Shown piece after piece: positions 8,036 through 20,053 of a DNA stretch of 40,593 nucleotides. Within the stretch, counting starts at the first letter, position 1. Every line of letters starts with the position of its first letter. A model generated the notes under the pieces. It saw only the letters and a list, made by a program, of their open reading frames with translations. It made no database searches and had not been told where the DNA came from. The DNA comes from Candidatus Kapaibacterium sp. (GTDB taxonomy: Bacteria; Bacteroidota; Ignavibacteria; Kapaibacteriales; UBA4661), in NCBI GenBank assembly GCA_025455065.1, contig JALONG010000042.1:1-40593 (forward strand), written 5' to 3'. The position numbers and the translations under genes are program-made.

Positions 8036-8560
8036 TCAGTGATTGTTCTTGCTATTGCCCTTTTTTCTATGGGCATGATGAGTAACGATACTTGCAACGA
8101 TACTCAAGCAACTTCAACGATGCCTTCTCTCCGCGCCGATAATACGGCGGAAGTTCCCTATCCTGAAGGGTATCGCCAGTGGGTACGGGTAAAAACCGCT
8201 ATTATCGGTCCGCAAAGCAAAGCATTTAAGCGGTTTGGCGGCATTCATCATATTTACGCTAATGCCAAAGCAATGGAGGGCTACAAAACAGGGCAATTTG
8301 CCGATGGTGCAATTCTCGTTTTTGATTTGCTTGAAACACTTGAACAGCAAGGAGTTACCGAAGAGGGTCCACGCAGGTTTGTGGATGTGATGGTAAAGGA
8401 TGCAAAACGTTTTGCTGACACAGGTGGCTGGGGGTTTGAAGAATTTAACGGCAATAGCACAACGGAGCGCAATATCAAAAACCTCGCTTCGACCGAATGT
8501 TTCCAATGCCATAAAAAGCAGGAACAAGCGGGGTTTGTCTTTACTAAATATCAACATTGA
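7961..8560 (+). CDS. Cytochrome P460-like haem protein with an acnA-derived N-terminus
   Basis: 199 residues. The c-type haem motif CFQCH is at 180-184 near the C-terminus. YPEGYRQWVRVKT, the FGGIHHIYAN stretch, GQFADGAILVFDLLE and GGWGFEEF are typical of the cytochrome P460 family, whose known members oxidise hydroxylamine or handle NO. Residues 1-24 are homologous to the first 24 residues of the neighbouring aconitase, and a hydrophobic export segment (25-40) follows. The gene therefore looks like a P460 reading frame fused to the acnA start. Whether the extended signal still directs export, or translation starts inside (for example the Met codons near residue 38), cannot be decided from sequence. 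The next gene starts 16 bp downstream. Confidence 0.85.
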   Translation: MSQPTSPHRTRTNLEVVGNSHKYFSSVIVLAIALFSMGMMSNDTCNDTQATSTMPSLRADNTAEVPYPEGYRQWVRVKTAIIGPQSKAFKRFGGIHHIYANAKAMEGYKTGQFADGAILVFDLLETLEQQGVTEEGPRRFVDVMVKDAKRFADTGGWGFEEFNGNSTTERNIKNLASTECFQCHKKQEQAGFVFTKYQH

Positions 8561-8576
8561 TTTGACTGAGAATATC

Positions 8577-9632
8577 ATGAAAAAGAAACATCCCACACAC
8601 AGCGTCGTTGATTTATTCTGCGGTATTGGCGGATTAACACACGGTTTCTGTCAAGAAGGATTTCATGTTGCCGCAGGTATTGATATTGACGAAAGCTGTC
8701 GTTACGGATATGAAGAGAATAATCAAGCACGGTTTATTGCGAAAAGTGTTGAGGATGTTTCGGGCGAAGAATTGTTGGGACTGTATCCGAAAGGTAGCGT
8801 CCGCATCCTCGTTGGTTGTGCGCCGTGCCAGCCTTTTTCCATGTACACCCAGAACCGCACAAGCGACAAAAAGTGGAAACTCTTACAATCGTTTGCACGA
8901 CTTGTCGAAGAAACCGCGCCTACGATTGTTTCTATGGAAAATGTGCCAATGCTGGTTCAGCATAAAAAATATCCGATATTTCAAGAGTTTGTTGCCGCCT
9001 TGAACGCCAGTCATTACCACGTTTCGTATCAACTCGTCTATTGTCCTGATTACGGCATTCCGCAGCAACGGACACGCTTGGTGTTGTTGGCTTCAAAACT
9101 TGCTCCGCTTCATCTTTTGCCGCCAACGCACACGCCGGAAGAGTATGCAACTGTGCGTACAACGATTGCGCATTTGCCGTCAATCCAAGACGGAGAGCGT
9201 CACACGGGCGATACGCTTCATTGGACAAGTTCGCTTTCTGCGCTTAACAAACAGCGTATTCGCGCTTCCAAGCCGGGTGGAACGTGGAAGGATTGGGATG
9301 AGAATTTGATAGTGGATTGCCACAAAAAAGACACAGGAAAAAACTACGGCAGCGTCTATGGGCGCATGGAATGGGACAAACCCGCACCAACCATGACTAC
9401 ACAGTTTTATGGCTACGGCAACGGACGCTTTGGTCATCCTGAACAAGACCGCGCTATTTCACCCCGTGAAGCGGCATTATTCCAGACGTTTCCCGAACAT
9501 TACCAATTTATGCCGCCAAATGGACAAATGCCTTTGCGTGTTTTGGGGCAGCATATTGGGAATGCTGTTCCGGTGCGGTTGGGGCGTGTGATAGCGCGGA
9601 GTATTAACGAGCATTTACAAGAATATTTGTGA
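8577..9632 (+). CDS. DNA (cytosine-5-)-methyltransferase
   Basis: 351 residues with the C5-methyltransferase motifs in order: AdoMet-binding VVDLFCGIGGL at 10-20, the catalytic loop GCAPCQPFS at 80-88 with Cys84, SMENV at 119-123, IPQQRTRLVLLAS at 161-173, the target-recognition region, then YGRMEWDKPAPTMTT and the C-terminal motif LGQHIGNAVP at 323-332. It methylates C5 of cytosine in a DNA sequence I cannot predict. ATG 8577 is chosen because the family begins there. The longer open frame runs back into the P460 gene. It starts 16 bp after the P460 stop and ends just before the DUF262 gene, suggesting one operon whose likely role is self-protection for a restriction or abortive-infection activity. 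Confidence 0.95.
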   Translation: MKKKHPTHSVVDLFCGIGGLTHGFCQEGFHVAAGIDIDESCRYGYEENNQARFIAKSVEDVSGEELLGLYPKGSVRILVGCAPCQPFSMYTQNRTSDKKWKLLQSFARLVEETAPTIVSMENVPMLVQHKKYPIFQEFVAALNASHYHVSYQLVYCPDYGIPQQRTRLVLLASKLAPLHLLPPTHTPEEYATVRTTIAHLPSIQDGERHTGDTLHWTSSLSALNKQRIRASKPGGTWKDWDENLIVDCHKKDTGKNYGSVYGRMEWDKPAPTMTTQFYGYGNGRFGHPEQDRAISPREAALFQTFPEHYQFMPPNGQMPLRVLGQHIGNAVPVRLGRVIARSINEHLQEYL

Positions 9633-9643
9633 GGAGAATGGAA

Positions 9644-10744
9644 ATGGCTATCAATCAAAACGGACATAATATTATTCCCCCGGAGCAAGTTGAAAAAGCC
9701 GAAGAACAGCTTAGAACCTTGCAGAGGCAGTATGATTATGATACGAAAGATTATCCCTTGCGGTATATTATGCAACTTTTTGAGGAAGATGAGCTTTTTG
9801 TTCCTGAATATCAACGTGAGCTAAAATGGAGCGAAAAGTTTCGAGTTTCATTTATTGAATCTTTATTGTTAGGCATTCCAATAGCTCCCTTATTAATTGC
9901 TCAACTTGACGATGGGCGACTAGAAATTATAGACGGAACGCAACGTACACGAACATTGCTGGAGTTTTTTAAGAATCGTCTCTGCTTGTCTGAACTAGAA
10001 AAACTGACGGAATTTGCAGGTTTCTATTTCAAGGATTTCTCTTTGTCACGCCAAAGAAAATTTGCCGAGGAGACATTACGAGTGCAAGTGATTTATGATG
10101 AAACAGACGAAAGTATTCGGTCGGACATTTTTAATCGCGTTAATACGCAATCTTTACCTCTGACCTCAAATGAAAGGCGCAGAGGGGCTTTCCCTGGACC
10201 GTTTACAGATTTTGTTGTTCTTTCAGCTAGTGATGAACGATTTACAGCACTATGCCCTGTTTCAGAAAAGCGCGGTAAAGACGAGCATCAAGAATTATGC
10301 TTGAGATTTTTCGCATATTCTGAAAACTATACGGATTTTGAGCATGACGTTGCACCATTTTTAGATGAATATGTGCAGCAAGAGAATCAACAGTTTGACG
10401 AGCAAAATCAAGCAAAAAAATCGCAGAATTTTGAAAAAATGATTGTATTTGTTAATCAATATTTTCCTCATGGTTTTGCAAAGTCTGCCAAATCAAAGGC
10501 AACACCAAGAGTGAGATTTGAAGCTATTTCCGTTGGTTCTCATTTGGCACTTCAAGAAAATTCGGAAACTATTCCGCAATACATGGACTGGCTGGAATCC
10601 GATGAGTTTATTGAGTTCACAACTTCAGATGCAAGCAATAATCAAGGAAAATTAAAACGCCGTGTTGAATTTGTCAGAGATTGTTTACTAAACCGCATTA
10701 CAAAAGATGACCTCAATTACACACGCATTTCGCAACGACTTTAA
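9644..10744 (+). CDS. DUF262 (GmrSD N-terminal-like / ParB-fold) protein without a visible HNH domain
   Basis: 366 residues. VPEYQRELKW at 53-62, IIDGTQRTRTLLEFF at 95-109 and FNRVNTQSLPLT at 163-174 are the three hallmark blocks of DUF262. These carry the (D/E)GxQRxxT nucleotide-binding/hydrolysis signature seen in GmrS-type restriction proteins. The C-terminal ~170 residues show no DUF1524 HNH motif, unlike full type IV GmrSD enzymes. ATG 9644 has GAGGAG 7 nt upstream. ATG 9638 and GTG 9629 are possible alternatives, the latter overlapping the methyltransferase stop. It lies between a C5 methyltransferase and a HEPN nuclease, so it probably supplies an NTP-dependent sensing or switching role. 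Confidence 0.88.
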   Translation: MAINQNGHNIIPPEQVEKAEEQLRTLQRQYDYDTKDYPLRYIMQLFEEDELFVPEYQRELKWSEKFRVSFIESLLLGIPIAPLLIAQLDDGRLEIIDGTQRTRTLLEFFKNRLCLSELEKLTEFAGFYFKDFSLSRQRKFAEETLRVQVIYDETDESIRSDIFNRVNTQSLPLTSNERRRGAFPGPFTDFVVLSASDERFTALCPVSEKRGKDEHQELCLRFFAYSENYTDFEHDVAPFLDEYVQQENQQFDEQNQAKKSQNFEKMIVFVNQYFPHGFAKSAKSKATPRVRFEAISVGSHLALQENSETIPQYMDWLESDEFIEFTTSDASNNQGKLKRRVEFVRDCLLNRITKDDLNYTRISQRL

Positions 10745-11438
10745 TCAACGAGTTCACGAAGTAAACGTGTACTTTGAGTTCCTGTCTCACTTGAAAATCA
10801 AGGCTGTCCTTGAGTATGAAACCTCGCTTGGGCAGCAACGAACCAATGTTCAAGGTGAACTTGTGCCTATACTGAAAGCAAATGGATTTCTCCTGCTCTA
10901 CAACCTCGTAGAATCCTCATGCCGCGAGGCTTTTCGTGCGATTTATGATACGGTCAATAGCGAGCAGATGCACTTTGAAAATGCCGCAGAAACCATACAA
11001 AAACTCTGGATTAAGCAGATTATTGGCGGTAAAACAAAGCCCGAAAACACATTGCTGACGGCAAGCGCAATGATTGATTTCATTCTCACACAGCAAATTA
11101 TTGAGTTCGATGAAAAATATGTCAAAAGGCAGCTTTTACAAGGCTTCCGAGGCAACATTGATGCCAAAGGAATACGAGGTCTTGCTGCGGAATATGGTTT
11201 TAGCTCTACATTGCCAACGGGCAGAGAGCAACTTGGTGATAATTTGTTGGAAATCAAAGACCGCCGACAGGATTTAGCGCACGGGCTCAAGACTTTTTCT
11301 GAATGTGGGCGCAAATTCACTGAGGATGAAATGATGACATACAAGACGAATATTGTCGAGTATTTGGACGCAATCCTCACTAACATCGAAACATTCCTCA
11401 ACCAAAAACACTACAAGAAAACTACTCTAACTCCCTAA
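10707..11438 (+). CDS. HEPN-domain nuclease of the MAE_28990/MAE_18760 type
   Basis: 243 residues, largely helical. The HEPN active-site signature R-x4-H is at 187-192 (RQDLAH) inside IKDRRQDLAHG. An N-terminal block has FLLLYNLVESSCREAF at 61-76, typical of this HEPN branch. HEPN domains are usually metal-independent RNases, and in defence settings they act as growth-arresting effectors. The start overlaps the end of the DUF262 gene by 38 nt, pointing to translational coupling. It is the last gene before acnA (39 bp gap). That it is the effector of a C5-methyltransferase/DUF262/HEPN system is inference from motif and order. Confidence 0.85.
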   Translation: MTSITHAFRNDFNQRVHEVNVYFEFLSHLKIKAVLEYETSLGQQRTNVQGELVPILKANGFLLLYNLVESSCREAFRAIYDTVNSEQMHFENAAETIQKLWIKQIIGGKTKPENTLLTASAMIDFILTQQIIEFDEKYVKRQLLQGFRGNIDAKGIRGLAAEYGFSSTLPTGREQLGDNLLEIKDRRQDLAHGLKTFSECGRKFTEDEMMTYKTNIVEYLDAILTNIETFLNQKHYKKTTLTP

Positions 11439-11477
11439 CTCAATTCATTTTTTCACCTCTAAACCTTGTTTGGATTT

Positions 11478-14189
11478 ATGAGCCAACCAACCTCCCCCTA
11501 CCGCATTGACGCTTCGCTCCAAGCCGGCGGCAAGTCGCATAAATACTTCGATTTGAAGGCATTGGACGCGAAAAATGGCGGCAAAGTTGCGAAACTGCCG
11601 TTTTCGATTCGCATTCTGCTCGAAAACGCTATTCGTAATTTTGACGACCTTGCGACCAACAACTCCCACATCGAAACCATTCTCAACTGGCAGCCAAAAC
11701 CGCCCGAAGAGGAAATTCCGTATATGCCCGCACGGGTGCTGATGCAAGATTTTACGGGCGTTCCAGCTGTTGTGGATATTGCCTCGATTCGCGCTGAATA
11801 CGCCCGCAAAGGCGGTAATCCCGACGACGTGAACCCGCTTATTCCCGTGGATTTGGTCATTGACCACTCCGTGATGGTAGATTACTACGGCACACCCGAC
11901 GCGCTCAACCAAAACGTGGAAGTCGAGTACGAGCGCAATATGGAGCGGTATCAGTTCCTGAAATGGGCGCAAAAAGGCTTCCGTAATTTCTCCGTTGTGC
12001 CGCCGGGCATGGGCATTTGCCACCAGGTAAACCTCGAATACCTCGCACACGGCGTAATTGCTCGTGATGGCTATGCTTTCCCCGACACGCTCGTCGGTAC
12101 GGACTCGCATACGCCGATGGTGAACGGTATCGGCGTGATTGGCTGGGGCGTTGGGGGCATTGAGGCAGAAGCCGCCTTGCTTGGTCAGCCGTCGTTTTTC
12201 CTCATTCCCGAAGTGATTGGTCTGCGCCTCACGGGCAAGCCGCCGCTTGGCACCACCGCTACCGACCTTGTTCTCACCATTACGCGCCTTCTCCGCGATT
12301 ACGGAGTGGTGAATAAGTTTGTGGAAGTGTTTGGTCCCGGATTAGACAACCTCTCCGTAACTGACCGCGCAACGATTAGCAATATGTCGCCGGAATTTGG
12401 CTGCACCGTAACCTACTTCCCGATTGACACGCGGACGCTGGAATACCTTACCAAATCCGGTCGCTCGGCTGACCAAGTAGATTTGGTTGAAAAATATGCA
12501 AAAGCAAATTTGCTCTGGCGCGAAAACGAAGACCAAATCGTTTATACGCACGTGCTGGAACTCGACATGAGTACCGTAGAGCCGACGGTTGCCGGTCCGA
12601 AGCGCCCGCAGGACAAAGTTCTCATGCGCAATTTGAAAAGCACTGTTGCTTCCACGATGGACAAAACCTTCTCACGCAAATACGTTGAGCCGAAAGACCG
12701 CAAAGTCGGTGAATTGAACGGACACGTGCGCTCACTTCAAGTAGAAGGCGAAAATTTCACGCTTGAGGACGGCTCGGTCGTGATTGCCGCTATCACAAGC
12801 TGCACCAACACGTCCAACCCCGACGTAATGATTGGTGCGGGTTTGGTGGCACAAAAGGCAGTTGCGCTGGGATTAGAAGTGAAACCTTGGGTGAAAACAA
12901 GTCTCGCGCCCGGCTCGAAGGTGGTTACGGAATATCTGAAACGCGCCAATGTGCTTGGCGACCTCGAAAAACTGCGCTTCCACGTAACGGGCTACGGCTG
13001 CACCACGTGTATCGGCAATTCCGGTCCGCTCAACGCGCCGATTGCTGCGACGATTGACAAAGGTGATTTGGCGGTAGCGTCGGCTCTTTCGGGCAATCGG
13101 AATTTCGAGGCGCGTGTTCACAACCAAGTCAAAATGAACTTCCTCATGTCGCCGATGCTGGTAGTGGCATTCGCGCTTGCAGGGCGCATAGATATTGACA
13201 TGGAGACCGAACCGCTTGGCACGGGCAAAGACGGTAAGCCCGTTTTCCTCAAAGATATTTGGCCATCAAACGACGAAATTCATGCAGCCGTGAGCGCAGC
13301 GCTCAAAACCGAAGACTTCAAAACGCAGTACGGAAGCGCGTTTGCAGGCGGCAAAGAGTGGCAAGACCTCGTTGCGCCGACGGGCAAAGTGTTCGATTGG
13401 CAAGAAAGTTCGACTTACATCAAAGAATCGCCCTTTTTCAAAGACCTGCCTGAAAAACCGACCGACCCGAAAGACATCACTGGCGCACGGGTGCTGCTCG
13501 CGCTGGGCGACATGATTACCACCGACCACATCTCGCCCGCAGGCGGCTTCAAAGAAGGCACACCGGCTGGGAAGTATTTGGTTGGGCGCGGCGTGAAAAA
13601 GGAAGATTTCAATTCCTACGGCGCACGGCGCGGACACGATGAGGTGATGATTCGCGGCACATTTGCTAACGTCCGCATCAAAAATGCACTGGCGGACAAA
13701 GAAGGCGGCTTCACGACGTATTTGCCGGAGAACGAAGCAACGACGGTCTATGAAGCATCGGTGAAGTACAAAGCGGCAAAAATCCCCGTGATAATTTTAG
13801 CAGGCAAAGAGTACGGAAGCGGCTCCTCACGCGATTGGGCGGCAAAAGGTACGTTTTTGCTGGGTGTGCGGGCGGTTATTGCCGAAAGCTACGAGCGTAT
13901 CCACCGCTCGAATTTGGTGGGCATGGGCGTTCTGCCGATGCAGTACAAACCCGGGCAAACGGCGGCTTCGCTGGGGCTAACGGGACGCGAGACGTTTGAT
14001 ATTCAGGGCATCTCGAAAGGCTTAGTGCCACTCGAAGAACTGACCATCAAAGCCACGCGCGAAGACGGCACGAGTTTCACCTTCACGGTAGATTCCCGCA
14101 TTGACAACAAAATCGAAGTGGAATACTACAAGCATGGTGGGATTTTGCAGTATGTGTTGCGTCAGTTTTTGGCAAGGAAGAATGGGTAA
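11478..14189 (+). CDS. acnA: Aconitate hydratase A
   Basis: 903 residues of the AcnA/IRP1 type. Interconverts citrate and isocitrate in the TCA cycle using a [4Fe-4S] cluster. The cluster ligands are visible: Cys442 in SCTNTSNPDV, and Cys508 and Cys511 in GYGCTTCIGNSG. The swivel domain shows GDMITTDHISPAG and KEYGSGSSRDWAAKG. Length and motifs are intact, so the gene should be functional. ATG 11478 matches the family start. Partial copies of its 5' end (7919-8035) and 3' end (17989-18089) flank the two accessory modules on either side. The present upstream spacer is only 39 bp after the HEPN gene. The ancestral promoter may now lie upstream of 7919, leaving acnA dependent on read-through or a weak local promoter. 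Confidence 0.97.
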   Translation: MSQPTSPYRIDASLQAGGKSHKYFDLKALDAKNGGKVAKLPFSIRILLENAIRNFDDLATNNSHIETILNWQPKPPEEEIPYMPARVLMQDFTGVPAVVDIASIRAEYARKGGNPDDVNPLIPVDLVIDHSVMVDYYGTPDALNQNVEVEYERNMERYQFLKWAQKGFRNFSVVPPGMGICHQVNLEYLAHGVIARDGYAFPDTLVGTDSHTPMVNGIGVIGWGVGGIEAEAALLGQPSFFLIPEVIGLRLTGKPPLGTTATDLVLTITRLLRDYGVVNKFVEVFGPGLDNLSVTDRATISNMSPEFGCTVTYFPIDTRTLEYLTKSGRSADQVDLVEKYAKANLLWRENEDQIVYTHVLELDMSTVEPTVAGPKRPQDKVLMRNLKSTVASTMDKTFSRKYVEPKDRKVGELNGHVRSLQVEGENFTLEDGSVVIAAITSCTNTSNPDVMIGAGLVAQKAVALGLEVKPWVKTSLAPGSKVVTEYLKRANVLGDLEKLRFHVTGYGCTTCIGNSGPLNAPIAATIDKGDLAVASALSGNRNFEARVHNQVKMNFLMSPMLVVAFALAGRIDIDMETEPLGTGKDGKPVFLKDIWPSNDEIHAAVSAALKTEDFKTQYGSAFAGGKEWQDLVAPTGKVFDWQESSTYIKESPFFKDLPEKPTDPKDITGARVLLALGDMITTDHISPAGGFKEGTPAGKYLVGRGVKKEDFNSYGARRGHDEVMIRGTFANVRIKNALADKEGGFTTYLPENEATTVYEASVKYKAAKIPVIILAGKEYGSGSSRDWAAKGTFLLGVRAVIAESYERIHRSNLVGMGVLPMQYKPGQTAASLGLTGRETFDIQGISKGLVPLEELTIKATREDGTSFTFTVDSRIDNKIEVEYYKHGGILQYVLRQFLARKNG

Positions 14190-14204
14190 ATGATTTGCTT
14201 GCGG

Positions 14205-14234
14205 CTCTCCACCTTGCCTTGGCGGGGTGGAGAG
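14205..14234 (+). terminator. Probable terminator of acnA
   Basis: A 9-bp perfect stem CTCTCCACC / GGTGGAGAG with a 12-nt loop lies 15 bp after the acnA stop and is followed by TTTCATTAATTTT. The T-tract is interrupted, so termination may be partial. It differs from the hairpin that follows the acnA-end copies at 18093 and 18957. Confidence 0.7.
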
Positions 14235-14287
14235 TTTCATTAATTTTCATTAATTCTAAATCTTACTTGATTTGTATTGTAGCTATT

Positions 14288-14740
14288 ATGAAAAATCATC
14301 TTGTAAACCTCCTTCTGGAAGCATATAAACTGTCGGAGTTGGAAAGAAAACTTGCTGCGATGGGCATAGATGCGTCTCACGCATTTGGATCTTTTGATAT
14401 AGCGGAAATTGTATTTGATATTATTGGATTTCCAGAAGATAATACATTGGAGTATTCGTGGAAGCCAATAGCTGGTATTGATGATGGAGAAAAAGAATAC
14501 AGAATTGTAAATGGTCAAAAAGTTGAACTCCGTGATGAAGATGAAAATCTATTTGCTAGAGACTGGTTAAATGACAAGCTGTTTGAAGTTTTTACAGATG
14601 AAAACAATCGCAAAATCACCATAAACGAAGATGGTTATTTCTTAAATGATATTGATTTAGAAAAGGTCAAAGCAAATCTGAGTGAGTTTGTTGATTGGCT
14701 CTATAATGAGTTGGAAGAATGGAAAAATGAAAAAAAATAA
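14288..14740 (+). CDS. Hypothetical acidic protein
   Basis: 150 residues, strongly acidic in the second half (ELRDEDENLFARDW, DLEKVKANLSEFVDWLYNELEEW). I do not recognise a family. There is no signal peptide or membrane segment. Predicted secondary structure by eye is a helical N-terminus (1-35), a mixed middle with an FDIAEIVFDIIGFPEDN segment, and a C-terminal helix. Codon and base use are visibly more A/T-rich than acnA. Together with the next two genes (46 and 12 bp gaps) it looks like a foreign block. Acidic proteins of this size in defence and toxin loci are often antitoxins, inhibitors or immunity proteins, but nothing here proves that. ATG 14288 is preferred over the longer frame that would run through the acnA terminator. 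Confidence 0.7.
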   Translation: MKNHLVNLLLEAYKLSELERKLAAMGIDASHAFGSFDIAEIVFDIIGFPEDNTLEYSWKPIAGIDDGEKEYRIVNGQKVELRDEDENLFARDWLNDKLFEVFTDENNRKITINEDGYFLNDIDLEKVKANLSEFVDWLYNELEEWKNEKK

Positions 14741-14786
14741 TGACAAGAGGCTGGGCTAAATTTTCAAACATATTTTCTTGAATCAA

Positions 14787-15068
14787 ATGGCATATCATAC
14801 AGTCAATAACACATATATCATCAGTTATGATCTGTCGCAAGGAGGTGATTATGATGCTATATTTAATGCCATCAAATCATACAAAACTTGGGCGCATATT
14901 ACACAATCTACCTGGGCTATCGCAACGGATAAGAGTATAACAGATGTACGCGATCATCTGAAAAGTTTGATGTCTGCTGGTAGTAGGATTTTTGTTGTAA
15001 AATCCGCTTCATTAGCTGCCTGGGATAATGTAATATGTTCAAATGAATGGCTGAAAAAAAATCTATAA
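14787..15068 (+). CDS. Cas2-like protein (ferredoxin-like fold, 'SinR family' type)
   Basis: 93 residues with the Cas2/VapD-like pattern: beta strand TYIISYDL with the conserved Asp, helix DYDAIFNAIKSYKTW, strand HITQSTWAIAT, helix ITDVRDHLKSLM, and strand RIFVVKS. The SYDL and Q-S-T-W blocks correspond to the Cas2 strand ending in Asp and its Q-S-V-F region. No cas1, other cas gene or CRISPR array is present, so a role in spacer acquisition is unlikely. It is followed 12 bp later by a two-helix membrane protein. A nucleic-acid-binding or RNase role is possible from the fold but not shown. ATG 14787 is chosen over the in-frame TTG at 14778. Confidence 0.75.
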   Translation: MAYHTVNNTYIISYDLSQGGDYDAIFNAIKSYKTWAHITQSTWAIATDKSITDVRDHLKSLMSAGSRIFVVKSASLAAWDNVICSNEWLKKNL

Positions 15069-15080
15069 TGCTAGAATTAT

Positions 15081-15497
15081 ATGACAGAGTTAATTAACAC
15101 ACCCATAGAAGCTGAAATTCAAGATGGTCATTCAGTTGAACGCCATATATCGGCTCAAGAAAATTCTTCTGGTGAAATTCATCCTCAAATAAAAAGAGCT
15201 AGGGTAGATTCTCTCATTATTTATGATGTTACTGAAGGAGAGCTTGAAACTATCGAAAGAGGGTCACCAAGTTCTTTATATCTAAATATATCAATAGCTT
15301 TGTTATCTATTGCTATTTCTTTTTTGATTACCCTCTTAACGTTTGACTTCAAGGATAAAATTTACTTATTCATTGTTTTTGTTCTTGTAACTATTGTTGG
15401 AATTTGCTTAGGAGTAATTCTCTTTATTGTTTGGTGGCGTACAAAAAATGACGTAGACATAGTTTTGAAGAAAATAAAAGAAAGAGCAAATCAATAA
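15081..15497 (+). CDS. Two-helix membrane protein paired with the Cas2-like gene
   Basis: 138 residues. The N-terminal ~60 residues are soluble and contain RVDSLIIYDVTEGELETIERGSPSS leading into the membrane (residues 41-65). Two membrane helices lie at about 66-87 and 94-118, separated by a short charged loop (DFKDK), and are followed by a basic tail (WWRTKNDVDIVLKKIKER). The layout resembles the two-helix predicted effectors (such as SLATT-type) found in defence loci, but I see no specific motif that assigns it. Close spacing to the Cas2-like gene and shared A/T-rich composition suggest a two-gene unit, with the soluble Cas2-like protein as sensor and this as membrane effector. That model is inference. 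Confidence 0.75.
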   Translation: MTELINTPIEAEIQDGHSVERHISAQENSSGEIHPQIKRARVDSLIIYDVTEGELETIERGSPSSLYLNISIALLSIAISFLITLLTFDFKDKIYLFIVFVLVTIVGICLGVILFIVWWRTKNDVDIVLKKIKERANQ

Positions 15498-15531
15498 AAA
15501 TAAAATAACTCTGCACCAGAAAATCAGCACC

Positions 15532-15762
15532 ATGCAAACACTCCACATCCGCATCAGCGACCGCGACGCAAAGGCGTACAATCTCAGCACCGAGAAGGAA
15601 ATATCCTTTCCTGAATTGGTAGAGAGCATTAGCCGCGTCTATGCCAAGCAAGCACTTCTCGAATGTAACGCCATTGCAGAAAAGAACGGGCTTTCAGCGA
15701 TGAGCCTTGACGACATCAATGCGGAAATTCGGGCTGTTCGCCATGCAAAAAATCATTCTTGA
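15532..15762 (+). CDS. Antitoxin partner of the PIN toxin
   Basis: 76 residues. It begins MQTLHIRISDRDAKAYNLS, an extended N-terminus like those of small ribbon- or AbrB-like antitoxins, and continues as a helix-rich tail ending in LDDINAEIRAVRHAKNHS that would wrap the toxin. The stop overlaps the PIN gene start by 20 nt, the usual antitoxin-first coupled arrangement. Assignment rests on the partner and size. Base composition returns to that of the host, unlike the A/T-rich block just upstream. Confidence 0.8.
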   Translation: MQTLHIRISDRDAKAYNLSTEKEISFPELVESISRVYAKQALLECNAIAEKNGLSAMSLDDINAEIRAVRHAKNHS

Positions 15763-16159
15763 CACCAACGTTATTGTTTCGGCACTTATTTCACATTCTG
15801 CTCCAACGCAGATTGTCTATGAATGTGTGTTGGAGCAAGCCCTCATGCTGTGCCTGTCGGATGCAATTCTGGAAGAATACGTCGAGGTATTGGCACGGGG
15901 AAAATTTAGCAAAGTGCAAGGATTCAGGCATAATGCTGACGTGGTACTGTCGAAAATACGCGATTTGGCACAGTTCTACAAACCACAGATTGCCGTTGAA
16001 CTTCTCAGTGATGCGGATGACAACAAATTTTTAGAATTAGCATTGGCAAGTTCAGCTGATTTCCTCATTACAGGCAATACGCAAGACTTCACGATAACAG
16101 AATTTGAATACACCAGAATTGTTACGCCGCGAGAGTATTGGGATTTGTACCGTCCATAA
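15743..16159 (+). CDS. PIN-domain toxin (COG1569-type)
   Basis: 138 residues from ATG 15743. The PIN acidic residues are in place: Asp7 in ILDTNVIVSAL, Glu44/45 in AILEEYVEVL, Asp90-Asp93 in LSDADDNKFLELA, and Asp115 in ITGNTQDF. PIN toxins are Mg-dependent RNases, commonly cutting tRNA, rRNA or mRNA. The start lies inside the antitoxin frame and supports coupled translation. All catalytic positions are present, so it may be active. It sits between the Cas2-like pair and the HindIII-type genes. Confidence 0.9.
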   Translation: MQKIILDTNVIVSALISHSAPTQIVYECVLEQALMLCLSDAILEEYVEVLARGKFSKVQGFRHNADVVLSKIRDLAQFYKPQIAVELLSDADDNKFLELALASSADFLITGNTQDFTITEFEYTRIVTPREYWDLYRP

Positions 16160-16163
16160 ACAG

Positions 16164-16213
16164 TAATTGATTGGAAGCCCTACTACTGGTTGTGGTGCGG
16201 CTTATATTTTTCA
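16164..16213 (+). repeat. Hairpin leader repeat, copy 1 (upstream of the restriction gene)
   Basis: TAATTGATTGGAAGCCCTAC, an inner loop, then GTGGTGCGGCTTATATTTTT. It is the same unit as at 18093, 18295 and 18957, with outer stem AAGCC/GGCTT. It ends about 22 nt before the ATG of the HindIII-family gene, so it could act as a terminator for the PIN pair or as a leader structure for the restriction gene. Confidence 0.75.
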
Positions 16214-16234
16214 GCTATTTTCTCACATTTACCG

Positions 16235-17149
16235 ATGGGCAAAATTATTTCCGAACAAAGCATAGAACGTCGTGCATATTGGGTGAAAGAAATCCAAAAA
16301 CTCAGTGGTAATTTTGCTGATGATTATGAGCGATTAGAGCAGGAATTGGAGCAAGAAATTACAGCGCAAGGCGTTCCCGCTCTCATAGACCACTTGCGGC
16401 TTTGCGGCAATATTCCTGAAAACTACGGACATGATACAAGCGAAGAAAAACTGTACTCAAAATATACGGATGCGTTGCTGTCGTTATCATTCAAAATGCT
16501 GGGGCTGAAAAGTTTGGTATTGAAGGAACGTGCTGATGCTGCCGATGTAGAAGCCTTTGCAGAAGATTACAGTTTTGTTGCCGATGCAAAAGCATTCCGT
16601 TTGAGCAGAACCGCTAAAAATCAAAAAGACTTCAAAGTTCAAGCTATTGACGGCTGGAAACGAGGTAAACCGTTTGCTATGGTGGTCTGTCCAATCTATC
16701 AGCTTCCCAACACGTCAAGCCAGATTTACCAGCAAGCAACAACGCGAAATGTCTGCATCTTTACGTACTCGCATCTGGCATTGTTGCTGACCTATTCGCA
16801 ACACGCTGGAAGCGCGAAAGCTCAACGGCTTTTGCAGCAAATTTTCCAAACGATTCCCGCAATGAATCCTTCAAAAAATGCCGTTGATTACTGGCTGGCA
16901 ATCAACAAGGCAATACTTTCTTTCTCAAAAAAACTTCCGTCTTTGTGGAAAGCCGAGAAAGAAGCAACAACGGAATCTGTTGCTATCGGGAAGGAAGAGG
17001 CATTGATATTTTTAGCTCAAGAACGTGAAAAAATCATGCGTTTGAGCCACCAAGAAGCACTCAAAGAATTGCTCAAGGTTCATAAAATTGACAGTAGAAT
17101 GAGAACTATTTCGTCTGTTACCGACAACGGCTTATTTTCTATACAGTAA
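16235..17149 (+). CDS. HindIII-family type II restriction endonuclease
   Basis: 304 residues; HindIII itself has 300. The region at 114-135 contains VADAKAFRLSRTAKNQKDFK, which matches what I recall of HindIII almost residue for residue. Further matches are SQIYQQ..NVCIFTYSHLALLL, and EEKLYSK near residue 70. The PD-(D/E)xK-type active site is visible as D104, D117-A-K119, with Glu98 as a further candidate metal ligand. By family knowledge it should cut A^AGCTT. ATG 16235 was chosen because upstream residues overlap the hairpin leader. The methyltransferase follows 8 bp later, the same R-then-M order as in Haemophilus. No truncation is seen. The absence of AAGCTT from this window supports the assignment. 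Confidence 0.93.
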   Translation: MGKIISEQSIERRAYWVKEIQKLSGNFADDYERLEQELEQEITAQGVPALIDHLRLCGNIPENYGHDTSEEKLYSKYTDALLSLSFKMLGLKSLVLKERADAADVEAFAEDYSFVADAKAFRLSRTAKNQKDFKVQAIDGWKRGKPFAMVVCPIYQLPNTSSQIYQQATTRNVCIFTYSHLALLLTYSQHAGSAKAQRLLQQIFQTIPAMNPSKNAVDYWLAINKAILSFSKKLPSLWKAEKEATTESVAIGKEEALIFLAQEREKIMRLSHQEALKELLKVHKIDSRMRTISSVTDNGLFSIQ

Positions 17150-17157
17150 AGCAAACA

Positions 17158-17985
17158 ATGGGTACAAATCAGCACATCAATCAAATCATTGAAGGTAATT
17201 GCATCGAAATAATGCAGCAATTCGACGATGACAGTATTGACTTAACGGTAACATCGCCGCCATACGATGATTTACGAAATTACAAGGGCTACGTGTTCCC
17301 ATTTGAGGAAATTGCACAGGCATTGTATCGTGTTACCAAGCCGGGCGGTGTTGTCGTCTGGGTTGTTGCTGATGCTACGATTGAGGCAACGGAGACAGGA
17401 ACGAGTTTCAAGCAGGCTTTGTACTTCAAAGAAATCGGTTTCAATCTGCATGACACAATGATTTTCCGCAAAAAAAACCCGATTCCGCAGATTTATCGCA
17501 AACGTTATAACAATGAGTTTGAATATATGTTTGTGTTCAGCAAAGGAGTGGTGAAAACGCATAATTCAATCATGGTAGATTGTCTGCACGCTGGATTAGA
17601 GCTGAATGGCACAACGTATAAGAATTATTCCAAGAATGAACAAACACGCGAAAAGTTGGCAAAACCCGTTAAAAACAAAAAAATCAAGGGCAATATTTGG
17701 GAATACGTCGTTGGCAAAAAGCAAGAAGACCAAGAGGCAAAGGGGCATCCAGCACCTTTCCCCTGTGAACTTGTCCGCGACCACATTATTTCGTGGACAA
17801 ATCCGGGTGATATTGTGCTTGACCCAATGAGTGGAAGCGGAACAACACCGCGAGTCGCATATGAATTGGAGCGAAATTATATTGGAATTGACATAAGCCA
17901 TGAGTACTGCGAGTTAGCGAGGCAGAGAGTCAAGAGCATTGAAAAGCAGCCGACCTTGCAATTTATAGAGCCTGAGTTGTTATGA
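17158..17985 (+). CDS. Cognate DNA adenine methyltransferase of the HindIII-like system
   Basis: 275 residues of the beta-class amino-methyltransferases. The catalytic motif TSPPYDDLR is at 32-40 and the AdoMet motif LDPMSGSGTT at 221-230, followed by ERNYIGIDIS at 238-247. The order catalytic motif, specificity region, AdoMet motif defines the class. As the partner of a HindIII-type nuclease it is expected to make N6-methyladenine in AAGCTT and protect the host. The recognition sequence is inferred from the partner, not read. The segment GTSFKQALYFKEIGFNLHDT is typical of methyltransferases that accompany such enzymes. Four bases after its stop the sequence becomes a copy of the acnA 3' end. 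Confidence 0.92.
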   Translation: MGTNQHINQIIEGNCIEIMQQFDDDSIDLTVTSPPYDDLRNYKGYVFPFEEIAQALYRVTKPGGVVVWVVADATIEATETGTSFKQALYFKEIGFNLHDTMIFRKKNPIPQIYRKRYNNEFEYMFVFSKGVVKTHNSIMVDCLHAGLELNGTTYKNYSKNEQTREKLAKPVKNKKIKGNIWEYVVGKKQEDQEAKGHPAPFPCELVRDHIISWTNPGDIVLDPMSGSGTTPRVAYELERNYIGIDISHEYCELARQRVKSIEKQPTLQFIEPELL

Positions 17986-17988
17986 AAT

Positions 17989-18089
17989 GTAGATTCCCGC
18001 ATTGACAGCAATTGCGAAGTGGAATACTACAAGCATAGTGGGATTTTGCAGTATGCGCTCACGTCAGTTTTTGGCGCGGAAGAATGCTT
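17989..18089 (+). pseudogene. Duplicate of the acnA 3' end
   Basis: About 100 bp align with acnA from 14088 to its end: GTAGATTCCCGCATTGACA is identical, and TGGAATACTACAAGCAT, GTGGGATTTTGCAGTATG and GGAAGAATG are shared. Identity is roughly 85-90% by eye, with at least one single-base indel. It begins four bases after the methyltransferase stop and continues into the hairpin leader (copy 2). This marks the right edge of the module inserted after acnA. Confidence 0.92.
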
Positions 18090-18092
18090 AGG

Positions 18093-18163
18093 TTTTAATT
18101 GACTGTAAACCGCGCTACTGATTGTAGTACGACTTTATTCTACAAAATTATTTTTCAAAAACC
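18093..18163 (+). repeat. Hairpin leader repeat, copy 2
   Basis: TTTTAATTGACTGTAAACCG and the following bases are a degenerate form of the unit best preserved at 18957. The stem is weakened by substitutions. The downstream part TTATTCTACAAAATTATTTT up to the next ATG is identical to copy 4, so leader and following gene start were duplicated together. Confidence 0.75.
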
Positions 18164-18274
18164 ATGACCATCCCTGAGCCCCAGACCATCCCTGACGCGC
18201 ACGGCAACCCCGCCTTTCATGCAGCTTCCCGCCGAAGAGTGGGCTGCGTTTGTGCGTGGGGGTACAGCGTATGA
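18164..18274 (+). pseudogene. Antitoxin gene remnant, copy 1
   Basis: The start encodes MTIPEPQTIPDAHGNPAF. The block IPDAHGNPAF resembles the strand at the start of RelB/Phd-type antitoxins (D-x-x-G-x-P-x-F). An extra C after GCCTTT throws the frame, and it stops at 18274. In the shifted frame the DNA reads MQLPAEEWAAFVRGG, the expected continuation. The gene therefore looks inactivated. Copies 2 and 3 are at 19027 and 19819. Confidence 0.7.
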
Positions 18275-18294
18275 GTACGGTGTTGTGTTATGTG

Positions 18295-18340
18295 TAATCA
18301 CTTGAAAGCCTCACTGCTGCTTGTGCAACGGCTTTGATTT
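18295..18340 (+). repeat. Hairpin leader repeat, copy 3
   Basis: TAATCACTTGAAAGCCTCAC, CTGCTTGTG and CGGCTTTGATTT follow the same order as in copy 4. It ends about 22 nt before the ATG of the frameshifted gene at 18362. Confidence 0.65.
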
Positions 18341-18361
18341 CCAAATTTTTATCACACTATT

Positions 18362-18680
18362 ATGCCTCTCACCGACTTTTTCATTTACTTGGATAGCGCA
18401 CTCGAAGAGCGGGTGCGGGTTCGCTTGACCACTAGAGAAGGGTAAACTGGCGGATTTGGTCTATCAATACGAAAGTTTGATTGGTGGTGAATGGCATCCC
18501 ATTGTTCGGTATGATGTGGCACACGGATTTTTTCACCGAGACGTTTTATTTCCGAATGGAACTCAAGAAAAGACACCTCTTGACTTTCCAACGCTTGAAA
18601 TGGCGGCGATATTTGCTGAACAAGATTTGAAAGACAAATGGGAATTTTACAAAGAACGCTATCTGAGTAAACTTACATAA
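18362..18680 (+). pseudogene. DUF7718-like protein gene, split by a one-base frameshift
   Basis: From ATG 18362 the frame encodes MPLTDFFIYLDSALEERVRV and stops at 18443-18445 after TTREG. Reading GAAGGTAAA instead of GAAGGGTAAA at 18438-18445 would join it to KLADLVYQYESLIGG and on to the end at 18680, giving about 105 residues. The second part (GGEWHPIVRYD, HGFFHRDVLFPNG, AEQDLKDKWEFYKERYL) matches what I recall of the DUF7718 family. A G-run slip is the simplest cause, either real or an assembly error. It is followed 9 bp later by a DUF5647-like gene. Confidence 0.7.
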
Positions 18681-18689
18681 GGAAACACC

Positions 18690-18929
18690 ATGCACACCTC
18701 CAAAACCAACGCTGAAGCGGTTCGCCACGATATTGGCTTAACCTTCGATTTCATCCGCGCTTGCATCCACAACCCCGCGCTCTTGGAGCAAGTAGAGCAG
18801 TTCGCCGACGGCACAGAACTGGTCTTCGTCGAAAAAGACCAACCCTTCCCAACGCCCAAAGAAGGAGCGAAGCAGCAGTTTATCAAGGTTTCGCACTCAT
18901 TTGAGGTGATAGAAATGGAAACTACATAG
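18690..18929 (+). CDS. DUF5647-like small protein
   Basis: 79 residues: an N-terminal helix with the pattern DIGLTFDFIRACIHNPALLEQV (residues 13-34), then DGTELVFVEKDQPFP. This helix plus 'x-V-F-x-x-x-D-x-P' pattern is that of DUF5647-type proteins as I recall them. No catalytic motif is visible. It lies 9 bp after the DUF7718-like frame. The two probably formed a small gene pair of unknown, possibly toxin-antitoxin, role. Confidence 0.6.
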   Translation: MHTSKTNAEAVRHDIGLTFDFIRACIHNPALLEQVEQFADGTELVFVEKDQPFPTPKEGAKQQFIKVSHSFEVIEMETT

Positions 18930-18941
18930 CTGTTGGCTTGG

Positions 18942-19026
18942 GAAGAATGGGTACGTTTTAATTGACTGGAAGCCGCACTGCTGCTTGCGGTGCGGCTTTA
19001 TTCTACAAAATTATTTTTCAAAAACC
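18942..19026 (+). repeat. Hairpin leader repeat, copy 4 (best preserved), with the acnA tail
   Basis: It starts with GGAAGAATGGGTA, the last bases of acnA. A perfect 9-bp stem follows, AAGCCGCAC (18970-18978) / GTGCGGCTT (18990-18998), then TATTCT. The bases up to ATG 19027 are the same leader as in copy 2. The structure could terminate transcription. The acnA-like beginning suggests this was once the natural downstream flank of acnA. Confidence 0.8.
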
Positions 19027-19080
19027 ATGACCATTCCCGAACCCCAGAGCATCCCTGACGCGCACGGCAACCCCGCCTTT
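19027..19080 (+). pseudogene. Antitoxin gene remnant, copy 2 (first 18 codons only)
   Basis: Encodes MTIPEPQSIPDAHGNPAF and then breaks off into unrelated A/T-rich sequence leading to the HigB-like gene. It is nearly identical to copies 1 and 3 over this stretch. Confidence 0.75.
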
Positions 19081-19127
19081 TTGCAACTATTACTTGCATT
19101 TTGTTATCTAATTCGATAACTTTTCAG

Positions 19128-19476
19128 ATGATACGAGAACTCATTTTCTACGAACATTATTTCTTTAATTTTTACGACGCGCAGCCGAAAAAAGTCCAAG
19201 AGAAAATTGACTATGTGCTTGATTTGATTTGATTTGATTGCGAATGTGGAAAGAGTTCCAGAGAAATTTCTGAAGCATCTGGAAGACACCGACGGGCTGT
19301 ATGAAATTCGTGTCAAAGTCGGCTCTGATATTTTTAGATTTTTTTGCTTTTTTGATGCTGGAAAACTTGTCGTGGTGTTACAAGGCTTCCAAAAGAAGTC
19401 CCCAAAAACACCAACGAACCAACTCGTGAAAGCAGAACGATTAAAACGTCAATATTTTGAGGAGAAAAATCAATGA
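19128..19476 (+). pseudogene. HigB/RelE-type toxin, frameshifted in a TTGAT tandem repeat
   Basis: The first 34 codons (MIRELIFYEHYFFNFYDAQP..VLDLI) end at TGA 19230-19232. A second frame starts there and encodes ANVERVPEKFLKHLED, then YEIRVKVGSDIFRFFCFFD, VLQGFQKKSPKTP and AERLKRQYFEE, the core of phage Gp49-like HigB toxins. The break falls in four tandem copies of TTGAT (19220-19239). With two copies the frame would read straight through as VLDLIANVERVP. The 3' end overlaps the antitoxin start (ATGA), the toxin-first order of higBA. As written no full toxin can be made. Slippage could restore it. Confidence 0.85.
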
Positions 19477-19763
19477 GTAAGACCACCACACTTGAACAGC
19501 ACTTCGCCAAACGGTACGGTGAAATCGGCACAGCACAGCGCGATGAGTTTGAAAAAAACTCCAAAGCCTTTGCCATTGGTGAACTGATTAAAGAAGCAAG
19601 GAAACAAGCCAATATGACGCAGAGCGAGCTTGCTGAAAAAGCAGGCACAAAGAAAACCTACATCTCGCGTATCGAAAATGGGCAAAGCGATATTCAACTC
19701 ACAACGCTCTTTCGTATCATCGAAACAGGCTTGGGAAAACAGCTGACGCTGAGTATCAAATAG
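19473..19763 (+). CDS. higA: HigA-type antitoxin, XRE-family HTH
   Basis: 96 residues. The helix-turn-helix domain occupies about 36-92: IGELIKEARKQANMTQSELA, then AGTKKTYISRIENGQ and LTTLFRIIETGLG. Such proteins bind the HigB toxin and repress their own operon. The start overlaps the toxin stop by ATGA. GAGGAG is present about 10 nt upstream of the ATG. The gene is intact while its toxin partner is frameshifted, the expected order of decay since the antitoxin is harmless alone. Confidence 0.9.
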   Translation: MSKTTTLEQHFAKRYGEIGTAQRDEFEKNSKAFAIGELIKEARKQANMTQSELAEKAGTKKTYISRIENGQSDIQLTTLFRIIETGLGKQLTLSIK

Positions 19764-19818: not shown

Positions 19819-20053
19819 ATGACCATCCCTGAACCCCAGACCATCCCTGACGCGCACGGCAACCCCGCCTTTCATGCAGCTTCCCGCGCCAAAGAGTGGG
19901 CGGCGTTTGTGCGTGGGGGTACAGCGTATAAGTACGCTCTTGCGTTTCGAGAGCGGATTAACCGATGCCTTCCGCGAAGTACGGCGTATGCAGAGTGGGA
20001 AAGAGTTTGGTACAGCGCTCCGCGAATTTTTGCAGGAATTTGACGAAGCATGA
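19819..20053 (+). pseudogene. Antitoxin gene remnant, copy 3 (longest)
   Basis: Begins MTIPEPQTIPDAHGNPAF, then HAASRAKEWAAFVRGGTAY. A shift after TACGCTCTTGCGTTTC moves the natural continuation (LTDAFREVRRM, then TALREFLQEFDEA) to another frame, which ends with TGA 20051-20053. That stop overlaps an ATG as ATGA, the usual antitoxin-toxin coupling. The remnant shows the original gene was about 80 residues. Confidence 0.7.

Follow-up and report, generated by a model that had tools for sequence, protein, structure and literature searches.

A HindIII-family restriction–modification (R-M) pair lies in a 40,593-base stretch of DNA, the window analysed here, in which the sequence AAGCTT does not occur. 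Did a long-resident enzyme remove its own target from this genome, as a preliminary description of the window had proposed, or does the absence reflect something broader? Site avoidance is often taken as evidence of a resident enzyme; in this case that is misleading, as the other palindromes and the sister species indicate. We considered the window's genome (G000) together with the seven other members of its genus (G001 to G007), the two remaining members of a family of 10 genomes (G008 and G009), and the order.

The restriction–modification unit

The features of the locus are listed below in window coordinates.

11466..14189, + strand: acnA (aconitase), whose final ~100 bp make up the repeated sequence of the insertion site
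14190..16162, + strand: extra cargo from acnA to the R-M unit (small ORFs, an antitoxin-like ORF and a PIN-domain gene), absent from G001
15532-15762: antitoxin-like ORF, so called by its position upstream of the PIN_3 gene only, with no Pfam match
15707..16159, + strand: PIN-domain (PIN_3) toxin-like gene, by Pfam
16163..16217, + strand: copy of a hairpin (terminator-like) element, the 5' edge of the R-M unit, common to G001
16235..17149, + strand: HindIII-family type II endonuclease, 304 aa from a likely ATG start, by Pfam, PDB match and alignment
17158..17985, + strand: beta-class amino-methyltransferase, 275 aa, motif IV TSPPYDDLR, motif I DPMSGSGT
17989..18086, + strand: second copy of the acnA 3' end (88.8% identity to 14088-14184), bounding the R-M unit on its 3' side
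18078..18290, + strand: hairpin element and start of the downstream gene, with partial copies at 18941-19080 and 19819-19946
18456..18680, + strand: DUF7718 gene, between repeat copies
19234..19763, + strand: Gp49 (DUF891) gene and HTH gene, a toxin–antitoxin-like pair, between repeat copies

The endonuclease matches the Pfam family RE_HindIII with an E-value of 4.7e-112 (374.3 bits, against a curated cut-off of 25.3), its PDB sequence matches are HindIII structures only (2e52 and 3a4k, E 1.2e-36), and its catalytic VADAK and FRLSRTAKNQKDFK block align to HindIII 2e52. The VADAK...NQKDFK block and the PD-(D/E)XK residues that mark the family are present, with D117-A-K119 of the active site intact; across 82 aligned endonuclease sequences, D117 and K119 are at least 97% invariant, as is every position but one of the VADAKAFRLSRTAKNQKDFK block. 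Separated from it by a gap of 8 bp (17150-17157) is a methyltransferase that matches Pfam N6_N4_Mtase (E 7.5e-47) and belongs to the beta class, since motif IV (TSPPY) precedes motif I (DPMSGSGT). Both genes had been recognised correctly in the preliminary description, down to the conserved block and D/DxK residues of the one and the class and spacing of the other; what does not hold is the 5' end of the endonuclease, which had been placed at 16164, within the repeated hairpin element (16163-16217). A TTG start at 16190 was rejected because it falls inside the same element, and it is also contradicted by 63 of the 80 named homologues, which align only from residue 16 or later. The likely start is instead the ATG at 16235, given that the resulting 304 residues equal the length of R.PsaI and that those 63 homologues align only from there or further on.

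We found 294 relatives of the endonuclease and kept the best 80 named loci of these. The homologue in P. anguilliseptica MatS1 (L053) is 67% identical to the window enzyme, and PanI of that strain is ~98% identical to R.PsaI, an enzyme of 304 residues that cuts AAGCTT (PMC12294265). AAGCTT specificity is therefore likely, and the window endonuclease very probably cuts this sequence when it is unmethylated, as judged by homology. Among plasmids, tblastn with the endonuclease matched 18 records, the 10 listed being from Escherichia or Klebsiella at 56–58% identity, and megablast of window positions 14000-19500 gave no match.

The predicted methylated base and the choice of partner

The window methyltransferase combines the motif order IV...I with an SPPY catalytic motif, as expected in sequence of a beta-class N4-cytosine methyltransferase. 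Most bacterial N4-cytosine enzymes have SPPY as their motif, and an SPPY-to-APPA mutant of one of them lost its 4mC activity (PMC8885841); beta-class enzymes may have DPPY or SPPY (PMC2890505). Motif IV being SPPY, N4-methylcytosine is predicted at AAGCTT, and we regard this as a rather probable product of the enzyme. A textbook site would then carry a different base modification. The DIPY-type N6-adenine methyltransferase of characterised HindIII-isospecific systems does not accompany the endonuclease in the window, where motif IV reads TSPPYDDLR, and the SPPY and DIPY types share ~24% identity over their full length. Matches of the window methyltransferase to at least 5,000 plasmid and 856 phage records, all below 60% identity, have little bearing on specificity.

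N6-methyladenine at AAGCTT, which the preliminary description expected, is thus doubtful, and we consider it unlikely, although several points speak for it. The PDB relatives of the methyltransferase include both kinds, namely two N4-cytosine enzymes, of which PvuII is one, as well as CcrM, MboIIA and RsrI, which we take to be m6A enzymes. The HindIII-isospecific methyltransferases described in those portions of the literature available to us are N6-adenine enzymes, m6A at AAGCTT has been recorded in Haemophilus parasuis (PMC6211672), and M.TpsD3I of Thioflexothrix, a beta m6A enzyme acting at AAGCTT, may be of the SPPY type (PMC5578853). Against these stand the association of SPPY with N4-cytosine enzymes, the loss of 4mC activity in the APPA mutant (PMC8885841) and the low full-length identity to the DIPY type. 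The available portions of the literature on AAGCTT and N4-methylcytosine (m4C) yielded no report of m4C at AAGCTT; for Beggiatoa, a modification of AAGCTT is on record, with its type left undetermined in that source (PMC5920184).

Within 2.5 kb of the endonuclease, the best 80 loci of the 294 have a partner of the SPPY type in 52 cases and of the DIPY type in 27, with none found in one (L071). The methyltransferase at the MatS1 locus is of the DIPY type, and a motif primer of the PsaI authors has DIPY in its name (PMC12294265). On the endonuclease tree of 81 rows (the window, G001 and 79 named loci) the partner types cluster, requiring 3 changes compared with 22.8 in shuffles. The exceptions are four DIPY rows on the SPPY side (L048, L049, L053 and L060) and three SPPY rows on the DIPY side (L070, L074 and L086); well-supported branches force only one change. 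HindIII endonucleases may have exchanged N6-adenine for N4-cytosine partners, or the reverse, with AAGCTT retained as target, a suggestion that we weigh below as part of a wider reading.

AAGCTT and other palindromes in the window and its genome

The absence of AAGCTT from the window, reported in the preliminary description, was verified: there is none in 40,593 bases, compared with 16.2 (sd 4.1) in 100 dinucleotide shuffles. Under a maximal-order Markov model the expectation drops to 5.2, AAGCT and AGCTT being scarce in their own right. The genome-wide count that had been suggested as a check came to 82 AAGCTT in 5,614,454 bases (131 contigs), an observed-to-expected ratio (O/E) of about 0.04, so that the frequency elsewhere in the genome is not normal. 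The reversed control word, TTCGAA, is rarer still, with 26 occurrences; scaling up a first-order model of a 400-kb sample gives genome-wide expectations of ~2,160 AAGCTT and ~2,870 TTCGAA. At the genome's own density, 0.59 AAGCTT would be expected in the window and the probability of zero is 0.55. The window is therefore ordinary for its genome, and it is the genome itself that is out of the ordinary.

The 400-kb sample consisted of 20 stretches from AAGCTT-holding contigs, lying between listed sites; its own AAGCTT count (1) is for that reason biased low, and whole-genome counts were used for the AAGCTT and TTCGAA figures instead. In this sample all 64 hexamer palindromes together stand at O/E 0.30 (2,159 of 7,164 expected), 42 of them below 0.2 and 56 at 0.60 or less, while non-palindromic hexamers are at 1.01 of expectation. 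The tetramers GGCC and GATC are at 0.017 and 0.089. Palindromes as such are not excluded from the genome, since eight of the 64 are at 0.73–2.19, with AGCGCT 2.2-fold over expectation.

Depleted non-palindromes were sought under a second-order model, hexamers with GGCC, GATC, CTAG or TTAA (88 of 2,016 pairs) having been dropped beforehand. Fourteen of the 1,928 eligible strand-collapsed hexamer pairs fall below an O/E of 0.12, as do 22 of 48 eligible palindromes under the same model. Nine of the 14 differ from a palindrome at one symmetric position, a form found in only 14.3% of all non-palindromic pairs, and the other five contain CCWGG. Seven of these nine fit RCATGY, GRCGYC, GTYRAC, GDGCHC or GTMKAC, which, like CCWGG, we take to be sites of known enzymes; the remaining two fit RTCGAY and CAYRTG, for which we know of no enzyme. 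Type II enzymes would be expected to leave such a pattern, the comparison being post hoc in that both the cut-off of 0.12 and the way in which the depleted words were sorted were chosen after the list was seen. Among the avoided words, an endonuclease was assigned to AAGCTT only.

Residual AAGCTT sites might lie in palindrome-rich, and thus foreign, DNA. The 20 of 82 sites tested had a median of 0.75 avoided words per kb, compared with 0.50, a difference that was not significant (p 0.15). The R-M cassette itself is as palindrome-poor as its host, with 2 avoided words compared with 18.1 expected; bearing this signature, it is no fresh import from an ordinary genome.

Avoidance in the genus, the family and the order

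From G000 to G007, the genomes of the genus contain 82, 35, 64, 13, 226, 1,726, 107 and 39 AAGCTT. The HindIII gene is present in G000 and G001 only, at densities of 14.6 and 7.6 AAGCTT per Mb, and the five non-carriers G002, G003, G004, G006 and G007 have 12.5, 2.5, 39.6, 20.2 and 11.5 per Mb. Five of the six congeners without the gene thus still avoid AAGCTT, the sixth, G005, having 539 per Mb. Across the order the gene occurs in 8 of 123 genomes; outside the family, the median is 145 per Mb in six carriers and 231 in 107 non-carriers, which is not a significant difference (p 0.28). Avoidance specific to this site and associated with the gene, as a resident system would produce, was not found. 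In G001 the HindIII copy has an in-frame TAA, the methyltransferase frame is open with an AAGCTT inside it, and the contig holds two further methyltransferase matches 3' of the unit's own.

The wider depletion is likewise shared. Total palindrome O/E is 0.30–0.37 in seven genus members and 0.75 in G005, with samples of 27–100 kb for each of the other family genomes; small samples gave 0.38 for G008 and 0.56 for G009. Ten order genomes outside the family, sampled at 14–40 kb, range from 0.38 to 0.98, and for the 79 named loci, drawn from many phyla, the median is 0.64 and the lowest value 0.33. Individual words also differ between clades: AGCGCT has an O/E of 0.09 in G001 and of 0.00 in its sister G003 but is 1.5- to 2.2-fold over expectation in the other six genus members, CCGG depletion is common to the same pair, and among the ten family genomes sampled the two words are avoided only there.

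The exception, G005, provides a natural control. Profile matches to the methyltransferase families PF01555, PF00145 and PF02086, which include fragments, cover three families only and are not gene counts, number 10/3/6 in G000, 15/6/7 in G001, 10/5/3 in G002, 2/3/5 in G003, 8/2/2 in G004, 0/0/0 in G005, 4/3/6 in G006, 4/1/1 in G007, 11/2/3 in G008 and 10/2/4 in G009. Alone among the 10 family genomes, G005 has no match to any of the three, each of the other nine having at least one to each; its assembly is 99% complete in 250 contigs. The reversal in G005 is partial: 12 of the 64 words remain under 0.2, and the tetramers GGCC and GATC stand at 0.12 and 0.25. An rpoB tree of nine of the 10 family genomes (no rpoB was found in G009) groups G005 on a long branch with G000, G002, G004, G006 and G007 (support 97/98), and rpoB does not reject its placement as the earliest genus branch, outside all avoiders (AU p 0.078). 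Palindromes are avoided in the outgroup G008 as well, which makes ancestral avoidance in the family, relaxed later in G005, the simplest history; for the same reason, this parsimony argument is independent of where G005 is placed. The contrast comes from a single lineage on a long branch and is suggestive, short of proof. G003 has just 10 three-family matches yet the fewest AAGCTT sites, showing that strong avoidance can be maintained alongside few methyltransferases, in agreement with the traces of lost systems described by Rusinov et al. (PMC4687349). In G000, 19 matches compare with 42 avoided hexamers; with so few matches for so many avoided words, most of the responsible systems are presumed lost.

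A proposed insertion site at the acnA 3' end

The acnA tail (14088-14189) recurs at 17989-18086, directly 3' of the methyltransferase. The G001 copy of the R-M unit, 89.6% identical to window 16163-18086, comes directly after acnA and is followed by more acnA-tail copies; G003 has one tail copy 3' of an acetyltransferase-like gene (sequence read by eye) and G004 has two extra copies. In G005 (L181) there is no second tail in the 3,274 bp past acnA, where long opposite-strand frames appear core-like (YchF-like GTPase and transaldolase, read by eye), and its acnA 3' end may be an empty site. Extra tails thus occur in four of the five genomes readable past acnA, and the R-M unit is not present at the acnA 3' flanks of G003, G004 and G005. 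The G006 contig ends at acnA, the acnA match of G002 reaches only residue 422 at a contig end, and G007 to G009 yielded no close acnA.

The gene acnA appears to have been exchanged between species of the genus. DNA identity between G000 and G001 is 90.6% in acnA compared with 81.3% in rpoB, that between G002 and G003 is 96.5% compared with 80.9%, and the acnA tree (whose loci include the window, L152, L154 and L157) conflicts with the rpoB tree. The R-M unit differs between G000 and G001 by 10.4%, matching acnA (9.4%) and well below rpoB (18.7%), so that it probably moved between species together with acnA. Cargo would seem to enter at the acnA 3' end, duplicating the target, and then to travel with acnA. 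The preliminary description had contrasted a long association with a recent insertion: the palindrome-poor cassette is in keeping with that contrast, and the probable movement of the unit between species is not.

An integron array is a less likely reading, the repeats being copies of the acnA 3' end; integron integrases exceed the curated cut-off at G000:C101 (L104) and G003:C48 (L103), with none in the window. Directly 5' of acnA lies a second defence-like set (window 8400-11438) comprising a C5-cytosine methyltransferase, a GmrSD_N-type protein (PADLOC NsnA) and a HEPN-domain gene. A small free-standing ORF at 14778-15068 is Cas2-like by eye and matches no NCBIfam or PADLOC family.

Discussion

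Our preferred explanation, to which we assign a probability of about 0.72, is that the R-M pair is orthodox type II cargo at an acnA hot spot and that AAGCTT was lost through lineage-wide self-restriction by many enzymes over time. The endonuclease would cut unmethylated AAGCTT, and the adjacent SPPY methyltransferase would protect the site, probably by N4-methylating its cytosine. The pair would be one cargo at an insertion hot spot, the acnA 3' end, and self-restriction pressure from many type II enzymes over a long time would have led to the loss of their sites, AAGCTT among them. The homology, the genome- and genus-wide depletion and its breadth, the presence of that depletion where the HindIII gene is missing, the partial reversal in G005 and the repeats were established directly. 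What we infer is that the enzymes are active, which base is methylated, that self-restriction caused the loss and how integration takes place. Several findings count against the explanation: the few methyltransferase matches of G003 and G000 beside strong avoidance, the single lineage and incomplete reversal of G005, residual AAGCTT sites with no significant bias to palindrome-rich DNA, and the assignment of an endonuclease to AAGCTT only. The genome-wide avoidance probably has restriction as its cause; the genome appears to be an archive of many earlier restriction enzymes, of which HindIII may be one.

A long association with an active AAGCTT enzyme, as originally suggested, would make the resident HindIII system itself the cause of the loss. 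The avoidance is indeed real, strong and genome-wide, and the cassette bears the palindrome-poor signature of its host; a specific link to the resident enzyme, however, does not survive comparison. Five of six congeners lack the gene and avoid AAGCTT alike, dozens of other palindromes are avoided equally, and the R-M unit seems to have moved with acnA between species, so we regard this explanation as very unlikely. A resident HindIII system is neither required for the loss of AAGCTT nor demonstrated as its cause. Somewhat easier to defend, though still improbable, is that the genus-wide avoidance of AAGCTT was left behind by a HindIII-like system of the ancestor that most species no longer have. 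The two carriers, G000 and G001, fall in the two rpoB groups and have the unit next to one and the same gene, and lost systems have been documented to leave traces (PMC4687349); yet divergence between the carriers is similar for acnA and the R-M unit and far lower than for rpoB, which points to later exchange, and the readable acnA 3' flanks of G003, G004 and G005 are without the unit.

The breadth of the depletion, with 56 of 64 palindromes at 0.60 or less, could also suggest that a mechanism other than restriction, such as mutation bias, hairpin instability or repair, removes palindromes generally. This we hold to be the least probable of the alternatives considered for the loss. Eight palindromes escape depletion, AGCGCT being over-represented, and the avoidance of AGCGCT and CCGG switches from clade to clade; among the depleted non-palindromes the pattern is one of degenerate palindromes and CCWGG, and the exceptional G005 is the sole family genome that lacks the three methyltransferase families.

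Returning to self-restriction by many enzymes, a wider reading can be built on it. The genus would carry a broad negative imprint of type II specificities, left by R-M turnover through shared sites such as the acnA 3' end; G005 would have lost its major methyltransferases, with its acnA site empty, and drifted toward normal palindrome frequencies; and HindIII endonucleases would have switched partners as outlined above. Taken jointly, these three parts have in our estimation slightly less than an even chance of being correct. If the wider pattern is true, one genus offers both a purge and its partial reversal after methyltransferase loss, the rates of restriction-driven site loss and recovery become measurable, and the genus constitutes a natural loss-of-function experiment for restriction-driven genome evolution. 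The genus-wide imprint with one partly reverted member is a more interesting object than the missing sites of the window.

The locus resembles known systems in several respects. Insertion of R-M genes with long target duplication has reportedly been seen in Helicobacter pylori, the genes lying between target duplications, here of ~100 bp; the present case differs in that the target is the acnA 3' end and that the copies delimit cargo units in four of five readable genomes. With the AAGCTT-specific type II systems PsaI, HindIII, PanI and EcoVIII the window shares a homologous endonuclease with conserved PD-(D/E)XK residues, its 304 aa being the length of R.PsaI, and with PsaI and HindIII a head-to-tail order of R then M; its SPPY methyltransferase of 275 aa belongs to another subgroup than the DIPY enzyme beside the MatS1 endonuclease. 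Gelfand and Koonin are said to have described the avoidance of restriction sites in genomes in 1997. Avoidance of type II sites by orthodox systems, persisting as traces after their loss, was documented by Rusinov et al. in 2015 (PMC4687349), and what we observe is of the same kind. It differs in breadth, with 42 of 64 hexamer palindromes avoided at once and seven of the eight sampled genus members affected, and in the addition of one methyltransferase-poor relative that has partly reverted.
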